A stretch of DNA of 22,543 nt from positions 1 to 22,543 of the IMG/VR virus record IMGVR_UViG_3300037119_008129; one strand, given 5' to 3'. Below are positions 514-22,269 of this stretch, piece by piece (the stretch's first letter is position 1; every line of letters begins with the position of its first letter). Under the pieces are notes generated by a model, which was not told where the DNA came from, did not search any database, and saw only the letters and a list, made by a program, of their open reading frames with translations. The translations under genes and the position numbers were made by a program. The stretch comes from a virus.

Positions 514-1998
514 TTATGCCAGCTTTCCGACGAGCGTGTCTCGTTGCCCGTCGTTGAGGGTGGGAATGTCGGCGAGCTTCGTGAGGATCGGCAGGTTCGA
601 GCGGGCGGGGTGTCGCCAGCGGGCGGTGCCTGCGCCTTCGACGTTGGCTTTGAATGTGTCGACGTCGTTGGGTGCGACAGCGGTGGCGCGGACGCCGTCG
701 CCGACGTAGTAGGTGGTCACACCGTTGATGACCTTCTTGCTCGTGAACAACATGTCGTCGTCCTCCAATGTGGTGGGTGGGGTTCCGGTCTGCCAGGTGG
801 TGAACCAGCGGCCGAGGTCTGCCGGGTTGCCGAGGTAGGCGTTGAAGTCGACGCGTTGGTTGCCCCACGTGGCCTGCGACGTGTACTGCCAGAACTGTGG
901 GTCCAACCCGCCGTAGCCGGTCCAGCCCGGCCCGTAGTCGCCGCCGCGGGCGTTGTAGATCTCGCCCGGCGAACCATCGGGCCAGGGTTGCGCCCCGTAC
1001 TGGGCGTTGATGAGGTCGAGGCCGGCGTTCGACATGAGCGGCCGGCCCTGTTCGAGCCAATACCAGTTCGCCGTGTACACCAACGCACACTTGTGGCCGA
1101 GCTTGCGGATCGCCGCCGCGACGTTGAGTACGTCGTCCCATGTGGCGTGCTGTTCGTGGCCGTCGGTGGGGTGGCAGTAGTCCTTGGGGCCGACTTCCCA
1201 GTCGAGCATGCACGGGATCGTGGGGTCGCCGCCGACGGCTTTGTGGAACGTGTCGGCCTGGCCCGCCGCCGGATGAGTCGCCAGCTCGAACACGAAGTGA
1301 TACGCGCAGAACGGAACCTTCCGCTGCTTGCACCATGCGATGACACCGGGCGCCGACGCATCCGGCGTCAGGCCGATCGAGGCGCGGCAGATCCCGAAGT
1401 CGATGCCGTGCGGGTCTGGTGGTACCAGCCCCTGATTCCATTTCGACACGTCGGGGCCGACCAACGCCGACGCGGTGACGGTGTCACCGGGGAGCTGCCA
1501 GGTTTGCGGTTTCGGTGAACCCTGCGCCTTCCACTGGGTGACGCTGTGCGGGAACTCGGTGAACTGGCCGTGCCAATCCTCCCCGCCCCACGTCGCCTGC
1601 TCCAACCCGTACGCCTCACAGTTCTGTGCGAACCATCTGAGGTCGCCGACGAAGTCGACGGCGGCCGATGCGGTTTCGACGAGTTGTTCGTGGAACGAGC
1701 GGCCGGGTGGGGCGGCGTGGGCCATGCCAGTGCGGAGCTGCCAGCGTTTCCCTTGGTAGCCGCAACACCCGCCGGTCGAGACTTGGCGGTGCCGTTCGTA
1801 GAAGACGCGTTCCTGTTGGCTGGTGGGGCGGCCGGCGCCGCCGACGCCGAGCACGCCTTTGCTGGCGACCATGAGGGCGCGTAGCCGCCGCTGGTATTCG
1901 GGGTGCAGCATCTTGACGGAGAGCCGGTTGAACACCGTTTCGATCGGGACCATCCTGACCGGTGTCCCGTAGCCGTCGGGGTAGAGGACGTCACTCAT
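514..1998 (-). CDS. Endolysin with M15 peptidase and GH25 lysozyme domains
   Basis: This 494-residue protein carries two peptidoglycan-degrading domains. Residues about 20-150 look like a zinc peptidase of family M15 (VanY/L-Ala-D-Glu type): the likely zinc ligands are H103 (RSFHEQ), D115 (AAVDFVGD) and H143 (EDWHGQ), and the last block is the typical ExWH-like signature. Residues about 180-400 look like a GH25 muramidase: DVSKWN at 183-188, AYHF at 232-235, the catalytic D-x-E as D266 and E268 in LDWEVG, and the late block with PQFWQYTS and VDFNAYLG. The last 90 residues match no domain I know and may bind the cell wall. The enzyme would cut both peptide and glycan bonds at lysis. Start ATG 1998 overlaps the stop of the 36-codon gene upstream, and two membrane genes follow. 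Confidence 0.93.
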   Translation of the reverse strand: MSDVLYPDGYGTPVRMVPIETVFNRLSVKMLHPEYQRRLRALMVASKGVLGVGGAGRPTSQQERVFYERHRQVSTGGCCGYQGKRWQLRTGMAHAAPPGRSFHEQLVETASAAVDFVGDLRWFAQNCEAYGLEQATWGGEDWHGQFTEFPHSVTQWKAQGSPKPQTWQLPGDTVTASALVGPDVSKWNQGLVPPDPHGIDFGICRASIGLTPDASAPGVIAWCKQRKVPFCAYHFVFELATHPAAGQADTFHKAVGGDPTIPCMLDWEVGPKDYCHPTDGHEQHATWDDVLNVAAAIRKLGHKCALVYTANWYWLEQGRPLMSNAGLDLINAQYGAQPWPDGSPGEIYNARGGDYGPGWTGYGGLDPQFWQYTSQATWGNQRVDFNAYLGNPADLGRWFTTWQTGTPPTTLEDDDMLFTSKKVINGVTTYYVGDGVRATAVAPNDVDTFKANVEGAGTARWRHPARSNLPILTKLADIPTLNDGQRDTLVGKLA

Positions 1999-2103: not shown

Positions 2104-3051
2104 TCACCTCGTCGGGGGAAGCACCACGGGCGTGGTCGTGGTGGTGGTGGGTGGGAACGGTCCGTTCGGGTTGGCGCAGGCCGACGACTCGGGCGGATAC
2201 GTGACGAGCACCGGGCCGGCGGTCGGGTTCACCGTGTACGTGAGGGAGATTCCCTCACGTAGCACGGCGTCACTCGGATCGAGCACCCAGAACCCGTCCG
2301 AGTTGAGGTTCCACCCCGGCACGTCGGCCACGGAGCCATCGGGATTGATATGCGTGCCGGGGTAGAGCACGTCGACCGTCGCGCCGGGCTGGTAGACGAT
2401 CGACTGCGTTCCGACGACAGTGCCGTTGACGTCGGTCATGGTGAGGGTGCCGGTCTGGCCGGCGAGTGTCGGGAACAGGTTGCGGAACTCGATGCGGATG
2501 GTGGGCACTTCCCGGACGCAGACGGTGCCGGCGGCGCCGAACGTGAACGTGTCAGGCAGTGTCGTCGTTGACGTGCTTGACGAGGTTGCGGGCAGCGTCG
2601 TGGAGGTCGTCGTCGGTGTAGACGACGCCGTCGTAGAAGTTGTCGAGGGCGGCGACGAGGTTGTCGTAGTCGGCGCGACGGACGTGGACGTAGTCGTCGG
2701 GGCGGTCTGAGGCGTGGTCACCACGACTGTCGTAGACGTCGTCGTGCCAATCGAGGTCGTTGATGTCGGTGCCTCCGTTGTCGTGCTGGTGCTCGTAGCG
2801 GTCGAGCTGGTAGGCGGCGTTGTAGTGGTGCTGGACGGAGGGGTAGTGACGGTGGTGGTTGTCGCCACCACGGTGTTCGGTGTGCAGTCGGGACATGTGG
2901 TGGTGGTACCCGCTGCCGTCGTCGTCGTGTACGCCGGATGTGTCGTGGTGGTGGGGTGGGTGTAGCCGGCGTCGACGCCGGGCATGAGGGCCAGGGTGGC
3001 GGTGACCGCGCCGACGGCTACAGCGGCGAGGGCGGCGAGGCGGCGGGTCAT
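2104..3051 (-). CDS. Secreted threonine-rich (mucin-like) phage protein
   Basis: This is a 315-residue protein. Residues 1-28 form a clear signal peptide: RR at 3-4, a hydrophobic core to about residue 24, and an AxA-like cleavage site after VDA. Residues about 32-167 are low complexity, mostly T with S, P and A, with one C-P-D-C at 53-56. Residues about 168-298 look like a folded, beta-rich domain with C178 and C292, which could pair. A second T-run follows at 302-307. Threonine/serine/proline stalks of this kind usually hold a domain away from a cell surface and are often O-glycosylated. Start ATG 3051 has AAGGA eight bases upstream, overlapping the stop of the tail gene before it. It is unclear whether the protein is on the virion or exported by the infected cell. 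Confidence 0.8.
   Translation of the reverse strand: MTRRLAALAAVAVGAVTATLALMPGVDAGYTHPTTTTHPAYTTTTAAGTTTTCPDCTPNTVVATTTTVTTPPSSTTTTPPTSSTATSTSTTTEAPTSTTSIGTTTSTTVVVTTPQTAPTTTSTSVAPTTTTSSPPSTTSTTASSTPTTTSTTLPATSSSTSTTTLPDTFTFGAAGTVCVREVPTIRIEFRNLFPTLAGQTGTLTMTDVNGTVVGTQSIVYQPGATVDVLYPGTHINPDGSVADVPGWNLNSDGFWVLDPSDAVLREGISLTYTVNPTAGPVLVTYPPESSACANPNGPFPPTTTTTTPVVLPPTR
2551..2958 (-). repeat. Threonine-codon low-complexity tract
   Basis: Bases encoding residues 32-167 of the secreted protein are dominated by ACN, TCN and CCN codons, read on the plus strand as runs of cgt, ggt and gtc. The tract is imperfect, with no fixed unit length and no spacers, so it is a coding low-complexity region and not an array. 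Such tracts tend to change length by slippage or recombination. Confidence 0.75.
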
Positions 3052-3060
3052 GGGTGGTCC

Positions 3061-5562
3061 TTAAATGATTTGGGTGGTGCCGACGTAGAGCTTCGTCACC
3101 AAGGTGGTGCCGATGCGGAGGTTGGTGATCGGGGTGGTGCCGATGTAGGCGGCGCCGGTTGTGGGGGTGTCGACGACGAGCACGAAGTCGCGGGTGCCGT
3201 CACCGCGGGCAGCCGGCAACGTCACCGACCGGGAAGGGTTCTGTGTTTCGGAGGTGGCGATGTCGGTGTAGGTGAACGCGACCGGATCCCACCAACGCAA
3301 CCGGACATTGGCGGTGCCGGTGATGATCGTGGTGTCGGCGACGACAGTGCGGTTGTTCGGGAAGTAGGCGACAGCGGTCGTGCCCTTCGACCCGGCGGCG
3401 GCCTTGGTGTCACCGGACCCGGTGCCGGTCGTGATGAACGAGTCGTGCGGCGCCCAGGCGGTGTGGTTGATGTGTTCGTCGGCGAACGAGTAGGCGTGGG
3501 CGGCCTCGAGTGTTTCGGCGCGGGTCAACGCCGGAGCGACCTTCGCCGAGTAGGTGCCGCCCGCCCCGAGTGCGGTCAGCCCGAACGGCCAGATGTCGGC
3601 GTCGCCGTAGTTGATGCCGACACCGCCGCGAATGAACGTCGTGTAGACGCGTTCACGCAAACCCTGCTGCGTCGGCGGCCCGGACCAGTCGCCGCCCCGG
3701 TACGGCGGTTCACAATCCCACACCGGCAAGGTGGTGGCACCCGTCTCGTTGTAGACGGCGTCGAACTGTTCGACGTCGAGGGTGTCGTAGTCGTAGTTCG
3801 AGTTGATCGACACCCGCAACCATTCGTATCCGGTCGGGTAGGTGCCCTGGTTGGAGATGAACCGGCTGTACGACGTCTCGTCTTGGTCGGGTTCGGCGAC
3901 GACGAGACGGTGGGTGGAGCCTTCGGCGTCGCGGATGCCTTGGAACACTTTGTCGATGGCGTTGGCGAGGGTCGACGTGACGTTCCAGTCGGTGCCGAGT
4001 TCCCACACGATGTTCGGGTAGGCGGCGTATCGGGTGGCGACGGCGTGCCCGTAGTTGTATGGGTGGGTGGGGCTGACGGTTTGGGCGGCGGAAAGGTCGT
4101 CGCCGATGCCTTGGGAGACGGAACCACCGGACCAGCCGGTGTAACAGACGGCGAAGATGACGGTCATGTTGAGCCGGGTGGCTTCGGTCATCACCCAGTC
4201 CATCGACGCCCACGCCGCACCGAGCGACGACTGCAACGGGGTGCCGGTGAAGAAGTTGGCGCCGGCCTTGTTCTGGTAACGGACCCAGCCGGAGCCGGTG
4301 TCGTTGTAGTTGCCGCCGCATGGCCAGACGGTGACGGACTTGTACCCGGTGCCGGCGAGCGATGTGAGGGCGGAGGTGATCTCGGCGTCGGACCCGTTCT
4401 GCGCCATGCCCCACGCCGACATGTTGCGGAGCAGATACGTGGCGCCGTTCTGGTCGACGAGTTTGCGGCCGGATACGGCGACCGGGTAGGCGAAGGACAG
4501 CACGGTCGTCGACGACGCGGCCATCGTCGCCGCGGCGGCGGTGACGGCGATGGTGCCGGTGATCGTCCACGACCCGGCACCGGTCGACGTGGCATCGGAG
4601 GCGGTGACAGCGACGGTGCCGATGACGGTGGTCGTGCCGGCAGCCACCGACGTGGCGTCTGCGGCGGTGACGGCGATCGTGCCGGTGTTGTCACCGCTGC
4701 CGCTGGCGGCCCCGGTGGCGGTCATCGTGGCGTCTGCGGCGGTGACCGAGATGGTGCCGTTGTGGTACGGGCTGCCCGCCGCGGCGCTGGTGGCGGCGTC
4801 AGCGGTGACGGTGATGGTGCCGGTGACCGACGTCGAACCGGCCGCCGCCGACGTGGCATCGGCGGCGGTGACCGAGATGGTGCCGGTGACCGACGCGGTG
4901 GCCGGGACAAGGACGACGGCGACGATCGAGCCGTCCTCCCAGTTGGTCGTAGTGAGGGCGGCGACAGTCGTGCTGCCCGTCGTCGGCGAACCAGACGCCC
5001 ACGCCGTGTCAGCCGGCTCGAAGAACGCCACCTGACTGATCAACGTCAGGTTCGACCACGAGTTCACGGTGCCTTCGACGACCGAGAACCCGTTGGCGCA
5101 GGCCAGGATCAGATCCCCGGTGACGGCGGTCAACGTCCCCGTCGTGTACGGCCCCGCCGACGAGCCGGTCTGCCCGCCTGATGCACTGCGGACACTGTCG
5201 ACGCCGCTGTAGAAGATCACCGACAACATCGTCGGCTGCTCCGCCGTGCCGGTGCCGGCCCAGTCCCACGCCAACGTCTTGTTGGTGCCGACGTCGGGCG
5301 CCAACATATAGAACATGGCCGACATCCACGCACTGTTGCTGGCGTCGCCCGCCAGTGACGCCGACGTCATCGCCGTCGCCGTCGCACCCTTCGTGAACGT
5401 CATCGCCCCGGTCGAGTAGAAGTTCGAGGTGGAGCTGTAGCCCGACACGCTGACCGCGACGAAGGTGGCGTCCGACGGCACGGTGATCGTCGACGACGCC
5501 GTCCCGCTGTTGGCCGTCGTTATCGGCAGACGCAGGATCGAACCCGTCTGTGTGATCGCCAC
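3061..5562 (-). CDS. Tail protein with DUF4038/GH140-like glycosidase domain (putative depolymerase)
   Basis: This is an 833-residue multidomain protein. Residues 1-220 are beta-rich and probably attach it to the tail or bind sugar. Residues 226-355 are degenerate repeats of about 22 residues around GTIxVTAADATSAAAG. Residues about 362-700 resemble the apiosidase-like DUF4038/GH140 barrel: it opens with GRKLVDQNGATYLL and has WELGTDW at 520-526 (candidate acid/base D525) and WDCEPPY at 615-621 (candidate nucleophile E618). Residues about 731-798 resemble the domain often found after DUF4038 (PF12904), with AYFPNNRTV and RWWDP. The C-terminus carries three short I/V-G-T-T repeats. I infer a virion enzyme that trims a capsular or cell-wall glycan during adsorption. 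Start GTG 5562 has GAGGG just upstream. The substrate cannot be predicted. Confidence 0.8.
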   Translation of the reverse strand: MAITQTGSILRLPITTANSGTASSTITVPSDATFVAVSVSGYSSTSNFYSTGAMTFTKGATATAMTSASLAGDASNSAWMSAMFYMLAPDVGTNKTLAWDWAGTGTAEQPTMLSVIFYSGVDSVRSASGGQTGSSAGPYTTGTLTAVTGDLILACANGFSVVEGTVNSWSNLTLISQVAFFEPADTAWASGSPTTGSTTVAALTTTNWEDGSIVAVVLVPATASVTGTISVTAADATSAAAGSTSVTGTITVTADAATSAAAGSPYHNGTISVTAADATMTATGAASGSGDNTGTIAVTAADATSVAAGTTTVIGTVAVTASDATSTGAGSWTITGTIAVTAAAATMAASSTTVLSFAYPVAVSGRKLVDQNGATYLLRNMSAWGMAQNGSDAEITSALTSLAGTGYKSVTVWPCGGNYNDTGSGWVRYQNKAGANFFTGTPLQSSLGAAWASMDWVMTEATRLNMTVIFAVCYTGWSGGSVSQGIGDDLSAAQTVSPTHPYNYGHAVATRYAAYPNIVWELGTDWNVTSTLANAIDKVFQGIRDAEGSTHRLVVAEPDQDETSYSRFISNQGTYPTGYEWLRVSINSNYDYDTLDVEQFDAVYNETGATTLPVWDCEPPYRGGDWSGPPTQQGLRERVYTTFIRGGVGINYGDADIWPFGLTALGAGGTYSAKVAPALTRAETLEAAHAYSFADEHINHTAWAPHDSFITTGTGSGDTKAAAGSKGTTAVAYFPNNRTVVADTTIITGTANVRLRWWDPVAFTYTDIATSETQNPSRSVTLPAARGDGTRDFVLVVDTPTTGAAYIGTTPITNLRIGTTLVTKLYVGTTQII
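4498..4887 (-). repeat. Tandem degenerate repeats coding a linker in the tail glycosidase
   Basis: About six units, each roughly 60-75 bases, encode G-T-I/V-x-V-T-A-A/S-D-A-T-x-x-A-A-G with variable joints of 3-13 residues. The DNA shows recurring blocks close to gcggtgac(g/a)g(c/a)gatggtgcc and gccgacgtggcatc on the plus strand. The units separate the N-terminal module from the glycosidase domain and look like repeated beta-strands of a shaft or spacer. Confidence 0.75.
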
Positions 5563-5601
5563 AGCAACCCTCGTTCAGTTAGCCGGGATCCGTTTCGGTG
5601 T

Positions 5602-6006
5602 TTACGCGTTGCCCATGGTGATGACGAGCGACGTGACGTTCACCGGTTGGGTGGCGACGATGCTCGTCGTCGTCAGGTTCAGGTCTGAACCGGAGGTGCC
5701 GACGTCACCGTCGATGACAGCGGTCGTGCCGTCCGACTTCCAGATGCGGAAATGGGTGGCGGTGCCGGTGGCGTCAGCGGACGTGTCCCCAGTGATCGCA
5801 CTGGCCGTCAACACCCCGGACGAGGCGCCGGCAGCGAACGCCGACGCGTTGCAGGTCAGGTCGGCGAGGAGGGTGCCGGTGATCGCCGCCGCCACGTTCG
5901 CCGGACGAGTCCCCGAGTAGATGCGGAGCTTGCCGGATGTGCCGACAGCGGTGGTGATGGCGTCGGCCTGCGCGGTACGCAGCGTCGCCGAGAACTTGAT
6001 AGCCAT
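5602..6006 (-). CDS. Conserved phage structural protein (small tail-associated family)
   Basis: The 134-residue protein has the look of a widespread uncharacterised phage family. It starts with a helix (KFSATLRTAQADAITTAVG), then shows K-L-R-I-Y-S-G-T-x-P, a middle with L-A-D-L and A-F-A-A-G, and a late block TGTATHFRIW followed by IDGDVGTSGSDLNL. It ends in a beta-strand and G-N-A. Relatives I recall sit among tail fibre genes, as this one does, between a fibre gene and the tail glycosidase gene. Its exact role in the virion is not known to me. Start ATG 6006 has AAGGAG six bases upstream, overlapping the stop of the fibre gene. Confidence 0.75.
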   Translation of the reverse strand: MAIKFSATLRTAQADAITTAVGTSGKLRIYSGTRPANVAAAITGTLLADLTCNASAFAAGASSGVLTASAITGDTSADATGTATHFRIWKSDGTTAVIDGDVGTSGSDLNLTTTSIVATQPVNVTSLVITMGNA

Positions 6007-6015
6007 TGTTTCTCC

Positions 6016-7770
6016 TTATGCCGTGACGGCGTAGAGGGTGTTGGAATCTTTCGTGCCGATGGCGTCGTACTGGGCCTGCGTGCCCTTCCACACGGCGACG
6101 AGTCCGTTCAACGCTGCCGGTAGCGGAGTTGTCCACGTCCCCGTCCCGTTGAGGAACGCGGTGGCGCCGGCACCGTTGGCGCCGGGTGCGAGACCGGCGG
6201 CGGTCGTCGTCGTGGAGAACAGGTTGTTGGCCTGCGCCGCCGACAGCGACTGCAACGCCACTTTGCCGCCGGGGATCGTCCCCGCCGACGACACGATGGC
6301 GACGGTCAGTTCCCAGTAGGTGCCCTTGTCGACCGAGTCGGCGGTGACGTTGAACAGGGCGTAACGGGCCGACGAGCTGTAGTCCTGTACGTACACCTGG
6401 AACCCGGCCTTGATGCGGCCCAGCCCGACGGCGACGTCGAGGCCGTCCGTGGTCGTCTCGGTGATCCATATCTTCGTCGACGACGTGAACGTGGCGTTGT
6501 TGCCGCGGAGCTGGTTGCCGATCGGCGGCTCGGTGACGGTCGTGTTGTAGGTGAACGGGAACACGCCGCCGACACCCGAGATCACAGACGCCGGCGATGA
6601 CCATGTGCCGTCATCCTTGAGGAACCTGCCGCTCGAGGCGGTCGGGTTCGGCACCGCCCCACGTGTGGTCGCCGTGAAGTCGGAGATGGCGACCGTCGGC
6701 GACGTGCCGAGGCTGCCGGTGAACGTGATCGGCGCCGTGCCGGTGATCGTCTGCGACTTGTCGGCCTTCAATCCGAGGGCGGTGCTCGTCGCCGTCGACA
6801 CCGGCTTGGCGGCGTCGGCCGTGTTGTCGACATTGCTGAGGCCGACGTCGGACTTGGAGAGTGACATCTCTGTTTTGTCGGCGGTGACGGTGATCGTGCC
6901 CCCGGCGTCGTCGTAGAGGATGTCGATGCCGACACCCTCGACGAGAGCCGTGGCGACGGCGTCGACGGCGTCCTCGGTGGTGATCCCGCCCCCGCCGCCA
7001 CCGGCCGGCGTCGACCACGTCCCATCGGCCCGCAGGAAGTTGACGGTCCCGCCACCCGACAACGGCACCACACCCGACGTGGTCGACGTGAACGTGGCGA
7101 CGGTGAGCGACCGGCCCGTCGACAGGTCGCCACCACCGTTGAGGGGGGCGGTAGTGGCGATCGTCGTCGACTTGTCGGCCTTCGCCGCCAGGTCGGCGGC
7201 GAGGCCGGTGACCTGTGATTCGGCGATCGTGACAGGGTCGGAGCTGCCGGACGCATGCGTCGCGGCGTGGGCGCCGGGTGCCGACGCCGGAACCCACACC
7301 GTGTCGAAGTCGTCGCCGCTGACTTTGGCGAGCACCTCGGCGGCGTTCCCACCGACCGGCACCCCCGGCCCGGCAGGCCCGTCAGGGCCGGGCGGGCCGA
7401 CAAGGATGGCGTCACCGGTCGACGACTCGATCGGGACGACGTCGGCGAGGTCGATCGCCGCGCCGGCCGGCGCCGACATCGCGAACCGCCAACCCCGTGA
7501 CGGGTACGTCAACCGGACAGTGACCAGATACGTCCAGTCGACCGGGTTCAGGTCGACGTCGTCGGTGGCGGCCAGCTCGACGGTGAACGACCCGTCGACG
7601 TCGAGGGCGGCGACGACGGGGATGCCGATGAGGATGGCGTCGGCGGATGCGTCGACCAGCCGGTTAGGTGCCGGCTCGAACGTGACGGTGCCGGTGGCGG
7701 GGGCGCCGTTGGCGAGGTTAATGAACGTGCCGGTGACGGTCACCGACCCGACGTTGGCGGGCACGCTCAC
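6016..7770 (-). CDS. Tail fibre / minor tail protein with collagen-like segment
   Basis: This is a 584-residue protein. Residues 1-120 form a beta-rich N-terminal domain of the kind that attaches actinophage fibres to the tail tip. Residues 125-136 (GPPGPDGPAGPG) are a short collagen-like G-x-y stretch, probably a trimerisation or flexible site. Fibre motifs follow: FLRADGTW at 245-252 and FLKDDGTW at 383-390, and a block at 303-325 with LSKSDVGLSNVDNTADA. The C-terminus holds a domain ending W-K-G-T-x-x-Q-Y-D-A-I-G and T-L-Y-A-V, often seen at the ends of phage fibres and minor tail proteins. Start GTG 7770 overlaps the stop of the coiled-coil gene by four bases. It probably contributes to host recognition. 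Confidence 0.85.
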   Translation of the reverse strand: MSVPANVGSVTVTGTFINLANGAPATGTVTFEPAPNRLVDASADAILIGIPVVAALDVDGSFTVELAATDDVDLNPVDWTYLVTVRLTYPSRGWRFAMSAPAGAAIDLADVVPIESSTGDAILVGPPGPDGPAGPGVPVGGNAAEVLAKVSGDDFDTVWVPASAPGAHAATHASGSSDPVTIAESQVTGLAADLAAKADKSTTIATTAPLNGGGDLSTGRSLTVATFTSTTSGVVPLSGGGTVNFLRADGTWSTPAGGGGGGITTEDAVDAVATALVEGVGIDILYDDAGGTITVTADKTEMSLSKSDVGLSNVDNTADAAKPVSTATSTALGLKADKSQTITGTAPITFTGSLGTSPTVAISDFTATTRGAVPNPTASSGRFLKDDGTWSSPASVISGVGGVFPFTYNTTVTEPPIGNQLRGNNATFTSSTKIWITETTTDGLDVAVGLGRIKAGFQVYVQDYSSSARYALFNVTADSVDKGTYWELTVAIVSSAGTIPGGKVALQSLSAAQANNLFSTTTTAAGLAPGANGAGATAFLNGTGTWTTPLPAALNGLVAVWKGTQAQYDAIGTKDSNTLYAVTA

Positions 7771-7955
7771 GGTGCGGCCTCCTGTTCGTTGAGACGGACG
7801 AGTAGTTCGAGGTTCTCGGCGATCAACGCGCCGACACGGGCAGCGAGGTTTTCTCGCACGATGCGTTCACGGGCGAGTGCGAGTTCGAGTTCGGCGACGC
7901 GGGCGTCGGGTGCGTCGACGTGTCCGTTGCCGACCTGTTCGAGGGTGTCGTTCAT
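7767..7955 (-). CDS. Small coiled-coil protein between fibre genes
   Basis: This 62-residue protein begins at ATG 7955, preceded by GAAGGAG at good distance. An alternative ATG at 7973 would add six residues and overlap the previous stop as ATGA; the ribosome binding site favours 7955. From about residue 18 to 58 the sequence is a regular heptad-like helix rich in L, A, E and R (VAELELALARERIVRENLA, then RVGALIAENLELLV), so a coiled coil is likely. No signal peptide or cysteine is present. It lies between two fibre genes and may be a fibre assembly or trimerisation factor, but this is only inferred. Confidence 0.65.
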   Translation of the reverse strand: MNDTLEQVGNGHVDAPDARVAELELALARERIVRENLAARVGALIAENLELLVRLNEQEAAP

Positions 7956-7969
7956 GGGTGCTCCTTCGG

Positions 7970-8830
7970 TCATGTCGGGAACCAGAGGGCGTCGACGCGG
8001 TCGGTGACCACGTCGGCGAACGTGGAGATGGTGCCGGTACCGGTGCCGCGGATGATCGTGGCGGTGATCGTCCGGGCGGTGCTGGCCGGCGCGGCGATGA
8101 CGCAGTGGAGAGACGCCGAGTTGTTGACGGTGCCGGCGCCCGAGTACCAGGAGGCGACCTCGGTGCCGCCGTCGCGGATGCGGACGATGTGACCGTCGGT
8201 GGCGACGGTCTTGTCGAAGCGGATCAACGCCGACAGGTAGACGGACGCGGCGATCAACTGGGCGGGGATGGTGAGGGTCACCACCGTCGTCTCGGTGGTG
8301 ACCGCCTGCGCGGTGAGGGCGACCCCGGCAGCGGAGAACGTCCTGGCGGCGGTCCGGGAGGCGTCGACGTATTGCATCGGGGCGGCATGCAACGCCGAGG
8401 TCGGGTTGCCTGGCAGCAGCACAGGCACCGTGGAGCGGACTTCGGCGGCGGTGACCCCGAGGATGGCGGTGCCGTTGCTGTTCACCAGTTGGATGGCGTT
8501 GCTGCCACCCATGCTCGCCCCGGTGACCGTCCCATAGGTGGTGAGGCCGCCGACGTTCCGCACCGAGATCGTGCTGTGCATGATCAGCGAACCGGTCAGC
8601 GTGCCGCCGGTCAGGTTCAGTTTGAGAGCGTCGGCGGCGGCCTGATCGGCCGACACCGGCTTCGACGCGTCGGCCGTGTTATCCACGTTGGCGAGGCCGA
8701 CTTCGGTCTTGGTGTGGGTGTGGGTGCCGGCGGCGAGATCGGCGACCGACGTGCCAGTCGAGGCGTCGATCACCGACTGCGGCAGACGCGGGTCGACATG
8801 GTCGACACCGACGAGACGATCGACAGGCAT
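7970..8830 (-). CDS. Tail fibre-like minor tail protein
   Basis: The 286-residue protein starts at ATG 8830, whose A overlaps the TGA of the S74 fibre gene. Residues 1-20 are a short polar N-terminus. A fibre motif block covers about residues 37-60 (HTHTKTEVGLANVDNTADA), nearly the same as one in the fibre at 6016-7770. LTGGTLTGSL at 73-82 is another common phage fibre motif. Residues about 160-286 are beta-rich and may be a receptor-contacting head. It lies in a row of fibre genes, so it is likely part of the adsorption apparatus. The precise position in the tail cannot be told. Confidence 0.75.
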   Translation of the reverse strand: MPVDRLVGVDHVDPRLPQSVIDASTGTSVADLAAGTHTHTKTEVGLANVDNTADASKPVSADQAAADALKLNLTGGTLTGSLIMHSTISVRNVGGLTTYGTVTGASMGGSNAIQLVNSNGTAILGVTAAEVRSTVPVLLPGNPTSALHAAPMQYVDASRTAARTFSAAGVALTAQAVTTETTVVTLTIPAQLIAASVYLSALIRFDKTVATDGHIVRIRDGGTEVASWYSGAGTVNNSASLHCVIAAPASTARTITATIIRGTGTGTISTFADVVTDRVDALWFPT

Positions 8831-10152
8831 CAGCCGGCCTCGAGCGTTTCGAGGCGGGCGGCGAGTTCCTGCACGGCGGCAGTCAGCAACGGGATCAACC
8901 GGGTCTGGTCGAGCTGCTGCGCCTTGACCGCCCCCGTCTCGACACCCATCTGCTCGGCCTCGTCGACGTCGTACACCGCGTCCTTCTCACCGGACACGGC
9001 CTCCGGTACGACCGCCGCCAGTTCGTGGGCGATGAACCCGTCGAACTGGGAGCCGGTGTCCTTCCACGCCAGATGCTTCGGTTGGGTCTGGAGGATCCGG
9101 GTCAACGCCCCGACGATCGGGCCGAGGTCATTTTTCAACCGGTAGTCGGATGGGGCGGTGACGGCGCAGCTCGTGATCTCGATGCCGAACGGTGTGACGA
9201 AGTCCTGTTGGATCTGCGAGATGACGCCGCCTGTGGCGTTCACGAACTGGATGTAGCCGGCGTTGTCGGCGTTCGTGTTGTGGCGGATACGCATGTTGGC
9301 GACACCGTTGGTTTGTGTCGTCGAGTAGATCGTGCCGCCCTCGAACAGTTCGACCCCTGCGAGTGCTTCGCCGGGTGACGTCTTGCCCCACATCAGGTTC
9401 GAGTCGATGCGGCCACGTTCGGCGCCACCCGTCGACAGTTTGATGACGCCGGTCCCGGATGCGTCGAGGAACACGTGACCGCCGCCGGCCGACGTGATAG
9501 CGATCGTGCCACCCGATCCGGCGGTGAGGTTGATCGGCCCCGACGTGCCCGTCTGAATGTTGAGGGCGCCCGTCCCACCCGCCTGGATCGTCACCGGGCC
9601 GGGGGCACGTTCGTTGACCAGTTGCAGCGTCGTGGAGCTGCCGAAGCCGACGTTGCCGTGGCGGGTGCCGGGCGCGGCGACGGTGCCGGAACCGTGGAAC
9701 GCGACGTACGCCGAGTTACCGCCCGCCGTGTCGATGCATTTGACCTGGCCGGTGGAACCGCCGAACGAACCGGTGCCGGTCACCGTCAACGACCCGCTGA
9801 TGGCGGCGCCGTTGTTGTCGACACTCATGCGTTGGGCGGCGTTGACGTTGAAGGCGTGGAGGCTGCCGGTGTTGACGTTGTAACGGAGGCCGGTCGACAT
9901 GGCGAACACGGTGGCGAGGGTTCCGCCGCCCGTCGTCTCGAACTGGATGGTGGGGGTGTCGCTCCCGCTCCGCAGCTTCAACGCCGGGGTGGCGTGGATC
10001 GTCAACGAGCCGGTCATCCATTGACTGACCGAGGTGCCGTCACCGATCGCACCGTTGACCTTGACGCATTGGGTGTTGAACTCGGAGGCGACCGAGTTGC
10101 CCCACGTCGACCGGATCAGTTCGGTAGGTGAGACGGTTGCGATCGTTGCCAT
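8830..10152 (-). CDS. Tail fibre/spike with C-terminal S74 intramolecular chaperone
   Basis: This is a 440-residue protein. The N-terminal 50 residues are conserved-looking and probably attach to the tail. Residues about 50-320 are glycine/threonine/serine-rich beta repeats. From residue 335 on it carries a Peptidase_S74 (intramolecular chaperone) domain: SDYRLKND at 335-342 gives the Ser-Lys pair S335 and K340. It continues with the HLAWKD and FDGFIAHELA blocks and a C-terminal helix (QTRLIPLLTAAVQELAARL). In this family the domain helps the fibre trimerise and then cuts itself off just before the Ser. The mature fibre would thus end near residue 334. Start ATG 10152 has GAGGAG upstream. Confidence 0.92.
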   Translation of the reverse strand: MATIATVSPTELIRSTWGNSVASEFNTQCVKVNGAIGDGTSVSQWMTGSLTIHATPALKLRSGSDTPTIQFETTGGGTLATVFAMSTGLRYNVNTGSLHAFNVNAAQRMSVDNNGAAISGSLTVTGTGSFGGSTGQVKCIDTAGGNSAYVAFHGSGTVAAPGTRHGNVGFGSSTTLQLVNERAPGPVTIQAGGTGALNIQTGTSGPINLTAGSGGTIAITSAGGGHVFLDASGTGVIKLSTGGAERGRIDSNLMWGKTSPGEALAGVELFEGGTIYSTTQTNGVANMRIRHNTNADNAGYIQFVNATGGVISQIQQDFVTPFGIEITSCAVTAPSDYRLKNDLGPIVGALTRILQTQPKHLAWKDTGSQFDGFIAHELAAVVPEAVSGEKDAVYDVDEAEQMGVETGAVKAQQLDQTRLIPLLTAAVQELAARLETLEAG

Positions 10153-10164
10153 AGGTGCTCCTCG

Positions 10165-11763
10165 TCAGGTCGGGTCGGCCCACGTGGCGAAGTCCCACAG
10201 GGCGTGGTCGGTTTCGTCCCAACGGACAGGTTGGGCACCGCCGACGAGGAACGGTTCGGCGTCGTCCAGGGCGATGCGGGCCTCCCAGCCGGCCGGCGAG
10301 ATGGAATGCTCGACACCGGTCACCAACATGACCCGGTTGAACACGACCCGATCGTCGATCTTGTGTTGGCATCGGTATCGGGCCGGCAGGAACGGGGAGG
10401 CGTCGGCGAGCACGGCGACAGTGTCCGGTGCGGATGCTTTGGCGGTGACGGTGACGGCGTTAACCCGCGGCATGTACTTCCATGACCGGTTCGTCAGGAT
10501 GCGTTCGCCGAGCCAGTCGAGGTCGGCGTCGTTCAACGTTTCGAGGTCGGTGCGTTCGAACGGTTCGACCCCGAACATGGACAGCCCGGCTTGGGTGCCG
10601 GTGGACAGGTCGGCTTCCATCGCCGGGGTCGGATAGATGCGGGGGACGTCGTCGGTGCGGCGGCCGAGCAGAGCTTGTGTGGTGATGTCGGCCCGGTTGA
10701 ACGTCAGTTCCCAGTTGGATGGGCAGACGTCGGCCGGGATGCGTTCGGTGGCGCCGCCACCGTGGAACTCGACGAGGCCGGGCACGACGTCGACCCATTC
10801 CAGGTCTGCCGGCAGCGTCGTCGTGTACACCCCGGAGGCGGGCGGGGTTTCGACGAACGTGACGGGCGGCACCGTCGCCGTGACGAACCCGGTGCCGTCG
10901 TCGACGAGGGTGACGATGTAGGCGGGTTGGATCGCGACGCCGGGGTAGCCGTAGTCGCCGATCGTGCCGAGCGGCGGCTCGCTGTTCGAGTAGTTCGGGA
11001 AGTCGCGTTGCCGGTAGGCGACACGAGGGTCGCCGTCGCCGAGGTCACCGAGGTCGCCGAAGATGGAGCCGCCACCGGAGTCGGCGGCCACGTTCAACAG
11101 GTCGACGCATTGGGAGCCGAGTTCGGTGGCGATCAGCGTGACGCCGGTCGTGTCGATGTCCCGCCGGTAGTTCGGCCAGCCAGCGGCATCCAAGACACGG
11201 TCGATGCGTTGGGTGACCGTTTCGCCGGCACCGACCGGGGTGGCGACGGCGGCGACTGCGGCACGGCCGGCGTCACCTTTGGCGTCGATGCACTCCAACG
11301 TGAGGCGGGCACCTTCGACGGCGTCATAGGTGGGGTTGGCACCGTCGATGTAACCGGCCCACAACACCACCGTCCTCGACGGGCCGAGTGCCGGGATCGA
11401 CACTTCGACACCGATACGGATCGAACGGCCCGGCCGGATCGACAACAGGGTCTGGTCGTCGGCGAGATCTTCCATCGACAGCGGGAAGTCGAACAGGCCA
11501 TCCCGATTGTCAACGGTGACCGTCGCCGAGCCAACCTCGAACTGGTCGACGACACGCTCCCGCCCGGCGGTGGTGGCGATGTCCTGCACGTGACAGGTGA
11601 CATCCAGCCAGTACGGCCGGTCACCAACCCAGAACGAATCGTCTGCGTCGTCCCAGTGGTCGACATCCCACTGTGCGGTGGAGGCGTCGTCATACGAGGT
11701 GCCGACACCCAGCTCGACGAACGGACGAACGCCGGGGAGGCGTTCGATGGTGGCGACGCTCAC
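10165..11763 (-). CDS. Minor tail protein (tail tip/hub)
   Basis: The 532-residue protein follows the tape measure directly, its GTG start (11763) overlapping that stop by four bases. An N-terminal block with FEVGSATVTVDNRDGLFDF at about residues 75-93 is typical of large minor tail proteins in actinophages, followed by WAGYIDG and an LTLECIDAKGD block. Position and length match the distal tail or hub protein that closes the tail tube and carries the fibres. The middle part has acidic loops (IFGDLGDLGDGD), and the C-terminal third (HSISPAGWEARIALDDAEPF) resembles the end of such proteins. No enzymatic motif was seen. Confidence 0.8.
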   Translation of the reverse strand: MSVATIERLPGVRPFVELGVGTSYDDASTAQWDVDHWDDADDSFWVGDRPYWLDVTCHVQDIATTAGRERVVDQFEVGSATVTVDNRDGLFDFPLSMEDLADDQTLLSIRPGRSIRIGVEVSIPALGPSRTVVLWAGYIDGANPTYDAVEGARLTLECIDAKGDAGRAAVAAVATPVGAGETVTQRIDRVLDAAGWPNYRRDIDTTGVTLIATELGSQCVDLLNVAADSGGGSIFGDLGDLGDGDPRVAYRQRDFPNYSNSEPPLGTIGDYGYPGVAIQPAYIVTLVDDGTGFVTATVPPVTFVETPPASGVYTTTLPADLEWVDVVPGLVEFHGGGATERIPADVCPSNWELTFNRADITTQALLGRRTDDVPRIYPTPAMEADLSTGTQAGLSMFGVEPFERTDLETLNDADLDWLGERILTNRSWKYMPRVNAVTVTAKASAPDTVAVLADASPFLPARYRCQHKIDDRVVFNRVMLVTGVEHSISPAGWEARIALDDAEPFLVGGAQPVRWDETDHALWDFATWADPT

Positions 11764-15658: not shown

Positions 15659-16243
15659 ATGCGAAGAACAGCTGTCGAACGGTTCGAGGCCCGCGTCCAA
15701 CGAGATGAAACGTCGGGGTGTTTGGTGTGGCAGGGACAGACGAACTACGGCTACGGGATCATGTGGTTTGAGGACCGCGGGCATCGCGTCCACCGTCTGG
15801 CGTGGGAATGGGCGAACGGCCCGATCCCCGACGGCATGGTCATCGACCACCTGTGCATGAACCGGGCGTGCGTCAACATCGAGCACCTCGAAGCCGTGAC
15901 CCAGGAAGTCAACGCCCAGCGGCGCAGCCGTGCGGCGATCGAGGGTCGCGGGGGCGGATGCCCGAACGGGCACCCCGCGACGGACATCCGAGTCGTGGCC
16001 TACCCCTACGCCACCAAGCGGTACTGCCTCGCATGCCACCGCGAACGAGCGGAGGCGCTTCGACGCACCGAAGGTCGACAGGTTCACGTCCCCAACGCCG
16101 AACGCGACGCCTGTCCGCAGGGGCACCCCTGGCCGGAATTCCTGAAGATCGGCCCCCGCGGCGGATACCCGTTCTGTCGTGAATGCCACCGGTTGCGGGA
16201 GAAGGCGCGGCGCGAACGACAGCGTCACGGCGTCACCGATTGA
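15659..16243 (+). CDS. HNH homing endonuclease with two extra zinc-finger-like units
   Basis: The 194-residue protein runs against the surrounding operon. Residues 20-80 fit the HNH_3 type: GCLVWQG at 20-26, YGYG at 30-33, then IDHLCMNRACVNIEHLE at 62-78, with H64, N73 and H76 as the likely active-site residues. Two similar zinc-binding units follow: CPNGH at 101-105 with CLACH at 123-127, and CPQGH at 152-156 with CRECH at 173-177. These probably bind DNA and set target choice. Start ATG 15659 has AAGG upstream, in a locally AT-richer stretch. The 3' end overlaps the tail terminator gene by 19 bases. It looks like a selfish freestanding element inserted between two essential tail genes; its transcript is antisense to the operon. 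Confidence 0.9.
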   Translation: MRRTAVERFEARVQRDETSGCLVWQGQTNYGYGIMWFEDRGHRVHRLAWEWANGPIPDGMVIDHLCMNRACVNIEHLEAVTQEVNAQRRSRAAIEGRGGGCPNGHPATDIRVVAYPYATKRYCLACHRERAEALRRTEGRQVHVPNAERDACPQGHPWPEFLKIGPRGGYPFCRECHRLREKARRERQRHGVTD

Positions 16244-18639: not shown

Positions 18640-19248
18640 TCATTTCGGTGTCAAGGACGCCAGGTAGGCGAGCACTTCGTCGAGGTACGGCGTCGCCGGC
18701 GGCTGCTCCCACACCGGCGGCGACACCGACCGCACCGCCAACACCTCGGCCCCCGAATAGGCCGGGTTCGGGACCAGAGCGATGTGATCGAGGAACGCTC
18801 TGGCGATCCGGCGACGATGCCGACCATCCGACCACACCTGATCCGACGGCTTCACCGCCATCCCCACCGACGCCCCCAGCACACCGTCGTCGGCGAGCTG
18901 CAACGTCTCATCACCGAGCAACGTCCGCGAGATGTACACCTCACCGACCAGCCCCACCTGCCGGTCGGTGTGAACCGCCCTCGCCAAACCGACCGTCCTC
19001 GTCACGTCGTGGTCACGGTTCGCCCGCACCCGACCCGGCCGCTTCTCCAACCCGTCGAACGCTCCCCGGTTCACCGACTCCACGATCAACTTGCCCGACC
19101 CCGGCGGATACTCGACGGTCGTCTCCTCGTCGTACGGCACCACGACGACCTCGATGGTGCGGTCAGTGAAGTCGACGGCCGACACTTCGACGGCGGCACG
19201 CCACTCCACAGGTGCCCGCGGCGGCGAATCCAACATCGTGTCGGTCAT
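18640..19248 (-). CDS. Prohead (capsid maturation) protease, U35 type
   Basis: The start is taken as ATG 19248, forming ATGA with the portal stop; the frame extends further upstream to 19356 only as a shadow inside the portal gene. The protein is then 202 residues, normal for HK97-type prohead proteases. The core has WRAAVEVSAVDFTDRTIEV near the start, GAFDGLEK at 62-69, NRDHD at 77-81 with candidate catalytic H80, and GASVGM at 125-130 with candidate S127. The family block DHIALVPNPAYSGAEV at 154-169 follows. It would cleave the capsid delta domain during head maturation. The position between portal and capsid genes is standard. Confidence 0.92.
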   Translation of the reverse strand: MTDTMLDSPPRAPVEWRAAVEVSAVDFTDRTIEVVVVPYDEETTVEYPPGSGKLIVESVNRGAFDGLEKRPGRVRANRDHDVTRTVGLARAVHTDRQVGLVGEVYISRTLLGDETLQLADDGVLGASVGMAVKPSDQVWSDGRHRRRIARAFLDHIALVPNPAYSGAEVLAVRSVSPPVWEQPPATPYLDEVLAYLASLTPK

Positions 19249-20486
19249 TGCAACACTCCAGACGTCAACGTCGTCGACGGCGCGGCGATCGTGAACCGTT
19301 CGATTTCCTGAACCTGCTCCACAGTGATCACACCCAACCCGATGAGGATCTGCCACGTCTGAGCACGCTCCAACGGGCCAGGCCGCACGAACTCGTCACG
19401 GTTCACCTCCACCGTCGTCCCCCGCGGCAACGCCCACCCCGACAACGCCTGCACCACCGGATCGGCCCGCGACTTCAACCCCGACCGCCAGAAATAATCG
19501 AAGATCGACTGAACGTTCGAGTACGTCATCGAATCCCCACCCGATGGCAGGCCCATCAGGAACGGCGGCACCCGCATCAGGACAGCCACGCGTGACTCGG
19601 TCATCTGCGCCAGCTCCACCATCCCCATCTGCGCCGGTGACTGCTGCGTCGCCTGAAACTCCACCCCGCCCGACAGGACCGCGGGCAGGCCCATCATCGA
19701 CGAGCGTGCGGCGAGCCACTGGTCCTGTAGCCCGGCCGCCTGCTCGGCCGTCAACGCCGACGGATGCGTGATGATCCCCGACGGCACCGCCCCGCCACCG
19801 ACAAAGTTCGAGATGTACCGGCCCAACAACCGTGACGCCAGCAGACGGGTACGGCCCACCTCCAACGGGCCGTGCCCGTGAGCATCCGACGTGCGGGACT
19901 GGTAGCGGATGTGCAACATGTCGCCGGTCACATCCAGGTTGCCGATCGAGTAGCGGCGGCCGGCGCCGTCCATCTCCACGTTCACCAACCACGGATCGAC
20001 GACGTGGAAGCGGGCAGGCCACCCCGTCGAGTACCGCGACGTCGTCACGACGAACGCCTCACCCAACATGAAATCCCACCACAACTGTTTCGCGAACTCG
20101 TGCCACGACGTGTACAAGTCCGGGTCCGGGTTGATCAACCACTCGTCGTCCAACGAGCTGGCGGCGCCGACGAGATACGGCGGCATCGACGCCAACAACG
20201 ACGCGATCAGATCAACACACCCCCACGCCACATCCGTCAAATCGTCCACCCGACTCGACCAGTTCGGCGTGTCCCACTCCGCCGGCCACCCCGACCACGG
20301 CGACGGCCGGATCGTCGACCTCGGCCACGAAGCCGGCTCACCCTCCGACACGAACAGGACACCATGCGGGTCGCCAGGCACGGCAGACGGCGGACCCACC
20401 GTGCCCGGCGGATGAGTCGCCGGGTCGTTGGCGTTCGGCGTGACATCGGGACGGAGTTGACGCTCCTCGACGGCCCGTTTGCCCAC
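19245..20486 (-). CDS. Portal protein (HK97 type)
   Basis: This is the ring protein through which DNA enters and leaves the head. From GTG 20486 it is 413 residues, a usual length. Blocks typical of this family include WGCVDLIASLLASMPPYLV near residue 85, a WWDFMLGEAFVV strand, DMLHIRYQSRTSDAHGHGPLE, and LMRVPPFLMGLPSGGDSMTYSNV in the last third, followed by SIFDYFWRSGLKS. The frame is open to 20993, but that extension is a shadow of the terminase gene. Other starts are GTG 20510 and TTG 20519. GTG 20486 was chosen because a candidate promoter would place the transcript start only a few bases before it. It has no clear Shine-Dalgarno site. Confidence 0.9.
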   Translation of the reverse strand: MGKRAVEERQLRPDVTPNANDPATHPPGTVGPPSAVPGDPHGVLFVSEGEPASWPRSTIRPSPWSGWPAEWDTPNWSSRVDDLTDVAWGCVDLIASLLASMPPYLVGAASSLDDEWLINPDPDLYTSWHEFAKQLWWDFMLGEAFVVTTSRYSTGWPARFHVVDPWLVNVEMDGAGRRYSIGNLDVTGDMLHIRYQSRTSDAHGHGPLEVGRTRLLASRLLGRYISNFVGGGAVPSGIITHPSALTAEQAAGLQDQWLAARSSMMGLPAVLSGGVEFQATQQSPAQMGMVELAQMTESRVAVLMRVPPFLMGLPSGGDSMTYSNVQSIFDYFWRSGLKSRADPVVQALSGWALPRGTTVEVNRDEFVRPGPLERAQTWQILIGLGVITVEQVQEIERFTIAAPSTTLTSGVLQ

Positions 20487-20535: not shown

Positions 20536-22269
20536 ATGGGCAGACCATCCAGATCAGCGAAGGTGTACACGACCCGCGAATACAAACGGGCACGCAAAGC
20601 ATGCCTAGACGGCGGACCCAAATGCTCGTACTGCCCGAACCCGGCAACCACAGCCGACCACCAGCCGCCCCTATCCCGACACTTCCACCGCGAAGGCTCC
20701 GGCTGCTGCCGACTCGTACCGTCATGCATGCCGTGTGCCCGACGACAGGGCGGCCACCTAGCCCCCGGCTCACCACGCTTCGCCCGACCCGACGGGCCGG
20801 CCATCCCCGTCGCCGACGACCCCGCCGGCTTCGACGTCGACTCCCCCGTGTGGGACGTGCCGTGGCTGGACCCGGTGCGGGTCGTACCCGCCGACGGATG
20901 GTGGCCGCGCCTGATGACGATCCCGCACCCCAACGCCGTCGGCTCGTACGGGGCCAAGGTCATCGAATGGGCACGCGTCGAACGCGGCGTCAAGTTCTAC
21001 TGGTGGCAGCAACTCGTCGTCATCCGACTCCTCGAACACGACAAGGGCGGCAGGCTCGTGTGGCGCGACGCATACCTGTCCGTCGCACGCCAATCCGGCA
21101 AATCATGGCTGGTGTCGATCATCGCCGACTGGCGATCCGAAGCCGCCTGGCTGTTCGGCGAACCCCAACTGGTGATGCACACCGCCGACACCCTGCGACA
21201 CGCCCTCGACGTCTGGCAGCTCGCCGTCCCACGAGCGTTGGAACTCGGCTTCGAGGTGCGTCGCGGGGCCGGCACCGAGAAGATCGACAAAGCCCACCGA
21301 GGCGCCCACGTCGTGCGGTCACAGATGGCCGTCGTCGGGTCATCCGCGTCGATGGCGATCGCCGACGAAGCCCAAGGCGTCAAGCTCTCCACGATCACCG
21401 AGAACCTGTCCCCCACACTCGTCGAACGCCAACAAGCACAACTCCTCCTCGTGTCCACGTCGCACAGTCATTGCACCGACCTGATGCCCACCTACCGGCT
21501 CCAAGGCACCGCCGACCTCGACTCGCCCGGCCGGATGCTGATGCTCGAATGGTCAGCCGACGCAACCCTGCAACTCGGTGACCCGGTCGCCGCCCGACAG
21601 GCGTCACCGCACTGGTCGAACAACCGGGAGCTCGACATCGGCGAGGCCGTGGCGCGGGCGTTGGCGACACCGGCAGGGCACGAACTGCGCGTCGCCGTAG
21701 ACGCCCAGTGGTACAACCGGTGGCCGTCCCTCGCATCACGCGGCGCAGGCGTACCCCTGCTCGACGACGGAGTGTGGGCGGCATGCGCCGGCACCGTCGC
21801 AGCGACCGAACCGGGATGGGTCGCCATCGAAGACAACTTCGGCAACGGAGCCGCCGTCGCATTCGTCGCCAGCGACGCAGACCGCTACGAAATCGACGGC
21901 ATGATCTGCGACACGTGGGCCGACGCACTCGTGTGGGCACGCAAGTTCATCGACGCATCACCCCAATCACAGCTCCTCGTCGGCGCCTCGATGTGGCGGT
22001 CAGTGCCGAACGACATGCCCGGCCTGAAGACTCGGGCCGGTGGCGCCGAAGCACGCCGCGGGCTGGCGGTGCTGCGATCGATGGTCGCCGCCGGCCGAGT
22101 CGTCCACGACCACACCCCCGACCTCGACACCCAGATCTCGGGGGCACGGGTGCGTCCCGTCGCCGACGGGCTGGGCCTCGTCTCCGAAGGTCGACAGGAT
22201 CTGCTCAGGGCGGCGTTGTGGGCGCTCTGGTTCGCGCAGCAACCGCCACCGACACCGACGATCAGGTGA
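20536..22269 (+). CDS. Large terminase subunit with N-terminal HNH-like module
   Basis: The start is taken as ATG 20536, giving 577 residues; a TTG at 20479 is open in frame but would overlap the portal start. Residues about 10-75 are an HNH-like zinc module: C30/C33, D41-H42 in TADHQPP, and C64/C67. The usual middle and last N/H positions are not obvious, so nuclease activity is uncertain. The terminase ATPase follows: ARQSGKSW at 184-191 is the Walker A motif, SMAIADEAQG at 272-281 holds Walker B D277 and E278, and LLLVSTSHS is the coupling motif. A nuclease domain covers about 400-577, with acidic residues at WVAIEDN. It packages and cuts DNA. It is transcribed away from the portal gene, an unusual arrangement. 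Confidence 0.92.
   Translation: MGRPSRSAKVYTTREYKRARKACLDGGPKCSYCPNPATTADHQPPLSRHFHREGSGCCRLVPSCMPCARRQGGHLAPGSPRFARPDGPAIPVADDPAGFDVDSPVWDVPWLDPVRVVPADGWWPRLMTIPHPNAVGSYGAKVIEWARVERGVKFYWWQQLVVIRLLEHDKGGRLVWRDAYLSVARQSGKSWLVSIIADWRSEAAWLFGEPQLVMHTADTLRHALDVWQLAVPRALELGFEVRRGAGTEKIDKAHRGAHVVRSQMAVVGSSASMAIADEAQGVKLSTITENLSPTLVERQQAQLLLVSTSHSHCTDLMPTYRLQGTADLDSPGRMLMLEWSADATLQLGDPVAARQASPHWSNNRELDIGEAVARALATPAGHELRVAVDAQWYNRWPSLASRGAGVPLLDDGVWAACAGTVAATEPGWVAIEDNFGNGAAVAFVASDADRYEIDGMICDTWADALVWARKFIDASPQSQLLVGASMWRSVPNDMPGLKTRAGGAEARRGLAVLRSMVAAGRVVHDHTPDLDTQISGARVRPVADGLGLVSEGRQDLLRAALWALWFAQQPPPTPTIR

Follow-up and report, generated by a model that had tools for sequence, protein, structure and literature searches.

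A GH140-like glycosidase domain in a predicted tail protein of a phage probably infecting an actinobacterium

Glycosidases of family GH140 have been described so far from bacteria that digest plant pectin, the apiosidase BT_1012 of Bacteroides thetaiotaomicron being the founding member. Phage tail glycosidases are useful tools to dissect and remove bacterial surface glycans, and to our knowledge few of them are known for actinobacteria. Both GH140-like domains in bacteria and phage proteins annotated as GH5 are already known. In the window analysed here, i.e., the whole 22,543 bases of an IMG/VR virus record, we identified a predicted tail protein with a GH140-like enzyme domain, a combination found neither in PHROGs, nor in real-looking phages of INPHARED, nor in the literature searched, an earlier mention being possible.

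Gene architecture and genomic context

The gene and its parts, all on the minus strand, are as follows:
3061..5562 (-): whole gene of the tail protein with the GH140-like domain, 833 aa, GTG start, frame intact
4897..5562 (-): N-terminal module, residues 1-222 (222 aa); a different module is present in the related contig L025
4513..4896 (-): repeat linker, residues 223-350, made of ~21-22-residue repeats TGTIxVTAADATxxAAG
3583..4470 (-): PF13204 apiosidase-like (GH140) barrel, residues 365-660, from Pfam, predicted fold and profile
3988..3990 (-): codon of D525, predicted at the end of beta4, aligning with Asp187 of BT_1012
3709..3711 (-): codon of E618, predicted at the end of beta7, aligning with Glu284 of BT_1012
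3169..3450 (-): PF12904 beta-sandwich domain, residues 705-798, from Pfam and predicted fold
3064..3147 (-): C-terminal tail, residues 806-833, YIGTTPITNLRIGTTLVTKLYVGTTQII, with 10-residue repeats

A purine-rich GAGGG stretch lies upstream of the GTG start, and the protein has no apparent signal peptide. The initial annotation, made from the letters alone, had read this frame as a DUF4038/GH140 protein with a PF12904-like end domain, and Pfam agrees: PF13204 (Apiosidase/DUF4038) is matched at E 8.7e-21 and 75.3 bits (curated cut-off 26.5) and PF12904 at E 2.5e-6 and 27.7 bits over residues 705-798 (curated cut-off 22), both well beyond chance. The numbering that it had given for D525 and E618 in the WELGTDW and WDCEPPY blocks is correct, WELGTD covering residues 520-525 and DCEPPY residues 616-621, and the repeat linker that it had noticed is real, as its DNA forms a tandem array with a period of ~63 bases (21 aa, 'TGTIxVTAADAT') at 4533-4702. 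The last 28 residues likewise correspond to an array of period 30 at 3073-3148; these C-terminal repeats are weakly like tail-cassette proteins of Mycobacterium and Gordonia phages (E 2-6, a likeness that is not significant alone). The whole protein had no match in PHROGs or NCBIfam, and its N-terminal module had no Pfam or PHROGs family match and showed no similarity in comparisons with modules of other phages.

The placement of the domain in a phage tail gene, also proposed initially, is borne out by the surrounding genes. Portal, protease, major capsid protein, major tail protein, tail fibres and a GH25 endolysin are encoded on the same strand, as is a 958-aa ORF in tape-measure position with no family match. 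Among these neighbours are:
5602..6006 (-): virion structural protein (phrog_3758), upstream neighbour, from PHROGs
6016..7770 (-): tail fibre with a PF24243 phage tail tip domain, from Pfam and PHROGs
8830..10152 (-): tail fibre with a Peptidase_S74 chaperone, from Pfam and PHROGs
514..1998 (-): GH25 endolysin, downstream, from Pfam and PHROGs

The GH140 gene is separated from the endolysin gene by an ORF at 2104-3051 (minus strand), whose 315-aa product is rich in Thr, begins with a stretch resembling a signal peptide and matches no family; what follows the GH140 gene in L025 is a PF12708 protein instead. A tRNA-Gln called by ARAGORN at 6113-6205 on the plus strand, antisense in a tail fibre gene, had no match in Rfam and is probably a false call.

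Two further observations concern the head and packaging genes. The terminase large subunit (20536-22269, plus strand) is opposite in strand to the portal (19245-20450, minus strand) and the rest of the cassette, as also in L026, whereas both genes share a strand in L027 and L043; a stretch rich in Cys and His that resembles HNH (CSYCPNPATTADH) is present at the start of the terminase ORF of the window. Between the major tail protein gene and its neighbour, a gene running against the cassette strand (15659-16243, plus strand) encodes a stand-alone HNH endonuclease (PF13392); the window phage seems to have gained it by insertion, since these flanking genes stand 17 bases apart in L025.

As for the host, the capsid protein is 43-47% identical to those of mycobacteriophages (34 of 34 INPHARED matches were Mycobacterium phages) and the terminase is weakly like those of Arthrobacter, Gordonia and Nocardia phages, two sequence likenesses that make an actinobacterium the likely host.

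Phage and cellular relatives

IMG/VR scans with the single window protein, with a neighbouring tail protein or with a generic alignment recovered no relative, and relatives of the enzyme were found only once a capsid-linked contig served as query. A scan with the window capsid protein gave 18 related contigs; in one of them, L025 (17.5 kb), a PF13204 gene is again present, in the same place as in the window and beside homologues of the same tail genes. The N-terminus of the L025 protein (888 aa) is unrelated to that of the window protein, the BLASTP alignment of the two starting only at residue 236; it is followed by the same type of linker with similar repeats and, from residue 355 on and including the C-terminal repeats, by a part with 52% identity. 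Scans with the window and L025 proteins then yielded a 37-kb phage contig (L029/G020) with homologues of the window terminase, portal, protease and capsid genes, in which the domain forms a stand-alone 446-aa gene lacking the N-terminal module. The GH140-like gene is within the tail module in the window, L025 and L029/L043, and a PF12708 pectate-lyase-like gene is found in the tail region of both L025 and L029.

Three more records with divergent versions (L047, L048 and L049), all above the Pfam cut-off of PF13204, were retrieved with the motif RYxxxPN(I/V)(I/V)WxxGGD. Their contigs carry hallmark genes of phages, namely terminase, portal and protease (G219), tape measure and head-tail adaptor (G220), and tape measure and portal (G221). 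In L048 the domain is part of an 870-aa protein, in which an N-terminal module precedes it and a long stretch of repeats follows. The L047 copy starts with a signal-peptide-like stretch; several genes next to it (4719-9235) also have signal-peptide-like starts, which is odd for virion proteins.

The PF13204 profile thus recognises the window protein and its counterparts in five other phage records, i.e., at least six records in IMG/VR with the window included, a lower bound because motif scans are exact. None of the GH140-like proteins of the relatives had a match in PHROGs, and no match was obtained in INPHARED by tblastn with the full 833-aa protein or with the N-terminal module alone, in agreement with the uncommon type suggested initially. 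With a DUF4038 query (4qfu), six INPHARED records labelled 'phage' were retrieved. Three that were read, L020, L021 and L022 (MT835684, MT835628 and OR847300), were rejected as phage GH140, as they look like mislabelled bacterial fragments with sugar-use loci or, in one case, a 3.9-kb piece in which no phage gene was recognised; such records would yield false reports of 'phage GH140'. A literature search for DUF4038 together with phage, over mostly non-subscription papers, found no report, and the papers that mention apiosidase or GH140 in a phage or virus context deal, judging from titles and abstracts, with subjects other than phage enzymes.

The closest cellular gene found, in a scan that Actinomycetota lay outside, is on the chromosome of Aquisphaera insulae (L030, Planctomycetota; 43-48% identity to the window domain). 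In the deposited sequence this homologue is split over two frames at ~10570-10597, by sequencing error or real decay. A model of the phage type matched only 3 of 199 Planctomycetota genomes at E 1e-10. In a tree of 15 domains, the window groups with L028 and L029 in a single clade (100/100); with few bacterial rows, mostly Planctomycetota, this tree does not tell one gain of the domain by phages from several.

These relatives bear on whether the enzyme is part of the virion at all. It might instead be a soluble protein made in infection or lysogeny and released by lysis or secreted, which would loosen matrix glycans or feed the host as the product of an auxiliary metabolic gene. The stand-alone copy of L029 and the start of the L047 copy agree with such a role, as does the Aquisphaera homologue, which differs from the window protein by its signal-peptide-like start and has no phage genes recognised around it. 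However, the window protein lacks an apparent signal peptide, possesses an N-terminal module as well as a linker and C-terminal repeats that also occur in L025, and is encoded between tail fibre genes and the endolysin, so that we regard a soluble enzyme as rather improbable for this phage.

Predicted fold, active site and specificity

An AF2 model built on an alignment of eight domain rows (phages and Aquisphaera) reached a pTM of 0.77 and a pLDDT of 69. A TIM barrel, on which the initial annotation had staked its reading beforehand, is what this model predicts: a (beta/alpha)8 barrel with strands at model residues 24-28, 55-58, 113-121, 164-170, 198-202, 225-230, 260-262 and 293-298, followed by the beta-sandwich of PF12904, i.e., the domain order of GH140. 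Several loops, including model residues 204-223 and 232-256, have a pLDDT <50 and the substrate cleft is thus not reliably modelled. An earlier five-row model was poor (pLDDT 53), and even so the top rank in Foldseek was a GH140 entry.

Among PDB structures, every GH140 entry that was found fits the eight-row model far better than any other fold. With VIA-align, Z scores were 32.9 (8t9w), 31.1 (5msy), 30.5 (4qfu) and 30.3 (3kzs), with an rmsd of 3.2-3.5 over 393-397 residues, nearly the whole model, as compared to 21.8 for the best non-GH140 entry, ~17-21 for GH5 entries and ~20 for GH5 mannanases; Foldseek agreed. Similarly, a profile of the eight rows retrieved BT_1012 (3kzs/5msy) at E 1.9e-40, 8t9w at 7e-40 and 4qfu at 4e-39. 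The likeness to BT_1012 covers both barrel and beta-sandwich over 397 residues, the catalytic positions and two aromatic Tyr, with only 18% identity. In contrast to BT_1012, the phage domain is fused to an N-terminal module, a repeat linker and C-terminal repeats, and has no apparent signal peptide. The structural matches 8t9w (a GH140 apiosidase from a mangrove metagenome) and 4qfu (BVU_2644, DUF4038) are likewise bacterial proteins of 425-484 residues without phage modules, 19-20% identical to the window domain.

D525 (model residue 171) and E618 (264) are predicted right after strands 4 and 7, at the strand ends where members of the GH140 superfamily have an Asp (82% of the family) and a Glu, respectively, and this strand topology agrees with a common pocket for the two acids. 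In the profile alignment they fall on chain positions 167 and 264 of BT_1012, which by a constant offset of 20 (our own count) are Asp187 and Glu284, the proposed active pair (PMC4032388). With the same offset, Y504 and Y512 map onto Tyr166 and Tyr174, conserved aromatic cleft residues of BT_1012 (PMC4032388). D525 and E618 are invariant in the family alignment (n = 7 sequences). Taken together, sequence profiles and the predicted model identify the domain as a member of the PF13204/GH140 (apiosidase-like) superfamily.

Solved GH140 structures have a loop of the type FNMFQSGH (BT_1012, where it reads FNMFQSGHRRY, and 4qfu) or FNMFQNGH (8t9w). The motif FNMFQ(S/N)GH (around SGHRRY) is absent from the window, L028 and L029, and also from the cellular members L034 and L039, which indicates that it marks a subgroup and not the whole GH140 family.

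The missing substrate-loop motif and the divergence from the characterised GH140 members (17-20% structural identity) would be compatible with a catalytically dead domain that kept the GH140 fold and serves as a receptor module binding glycans. Since six of six phage copies and the aligned cellular sequences have retained both acids, despite 21-25% identity to the distant ones, and since the aromatic cleft residues also have their counterparts, we consider a dead domain very unlikely and an active glycosidase is retained below.

Because the loop is missing in the window group, apiose specificity is not to be assumed. The Pfam family name and the known function of BT_1012 suggest a genuine apiosidase, or an enzyme acting on plant glycans, of use to the phage or its host when on plant material, but the absence of the loop and a tail location, which implies a host-surface target, make this extremely unlikely. 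The arabinogalactan-like target put forward initially was speculation: neither apiose nor arabinogalactan specificity is supported, nor is any other specific substrate.

The domain was also compared with phage proteins annotated as GH5, cellulase or endoglucanase from Erwinia phages phiEaP8 and pEp_SNUABM_01 and Klebsiella phage SopranoGao, which share its TIM-barrel glycosidase fold in a BFVD fold search, with 12-14% identity and a TM-score of 0.41-0.44 on the query. The catalytic pair of GH5 is Glu/Glu and not Asp/Glu (PMC4032388), and membership in GH5 is ruled out by the structure scores and the catalytic Asp at beta4.

Proposed function and significance

Gene position, modular build and a conserved active site favour a tail-mounted glycosidase acting on a host glycan, and we consider it probable that the protein is a depolymerase cutting a surface or wall glycan of the host, in a tailed phage probably of an actinobacterium. 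The N-terminal module and the flexible repeat linker would mount a two-domain GH140-like glycosidase on the tail, the barrel, with Asp525 and Glu618 as catalytic pair, and the beta-sandwich together forming the enzyme. During adsorption, this enzyme would cut a polysaccharide on the host surface, be it capsule, exopolysaccharide or a glycan of the cell wall, by hydrolysis of its glycosidic bonds, and this may clear the way to the cell or serve as a binding step. We infer the depolymerase role from gene position and domain make-up, and presence in the virion, enzymatic activity and a host-glycan target are predicted likewise. The N-terminus, which differs in L025, may be an exchangeable anchoring module; no anchoring family was recognised in that of the window protein. 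Not all phage versions need be virion-bound, and some may not be, given the L029 copy without this module and the signal-peptide-like start in L047.

More tentatively, GH140-like domains could form an unrecognised class of tail depolymerases with their own, non-apiose specificity, acquired by several phage lineages, exchanged with cellular genes and directed against a glycan of the actinobacterial wall or capsule that no known enzyme attacks.

For experimental tests, D525 and E618 offer a defined residue pair. If the proposed function is true, a glycosidase family of plant-glycan degraders on phage tails would be an added enzyme class of phage depolymerases, and this would suggest microbial glycans, and not those of plants, as the substrates of many PF13204 proteins. 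The phage records with the domain, at least six, point to a little-noticed kind of tool for cutting host surface sugars.
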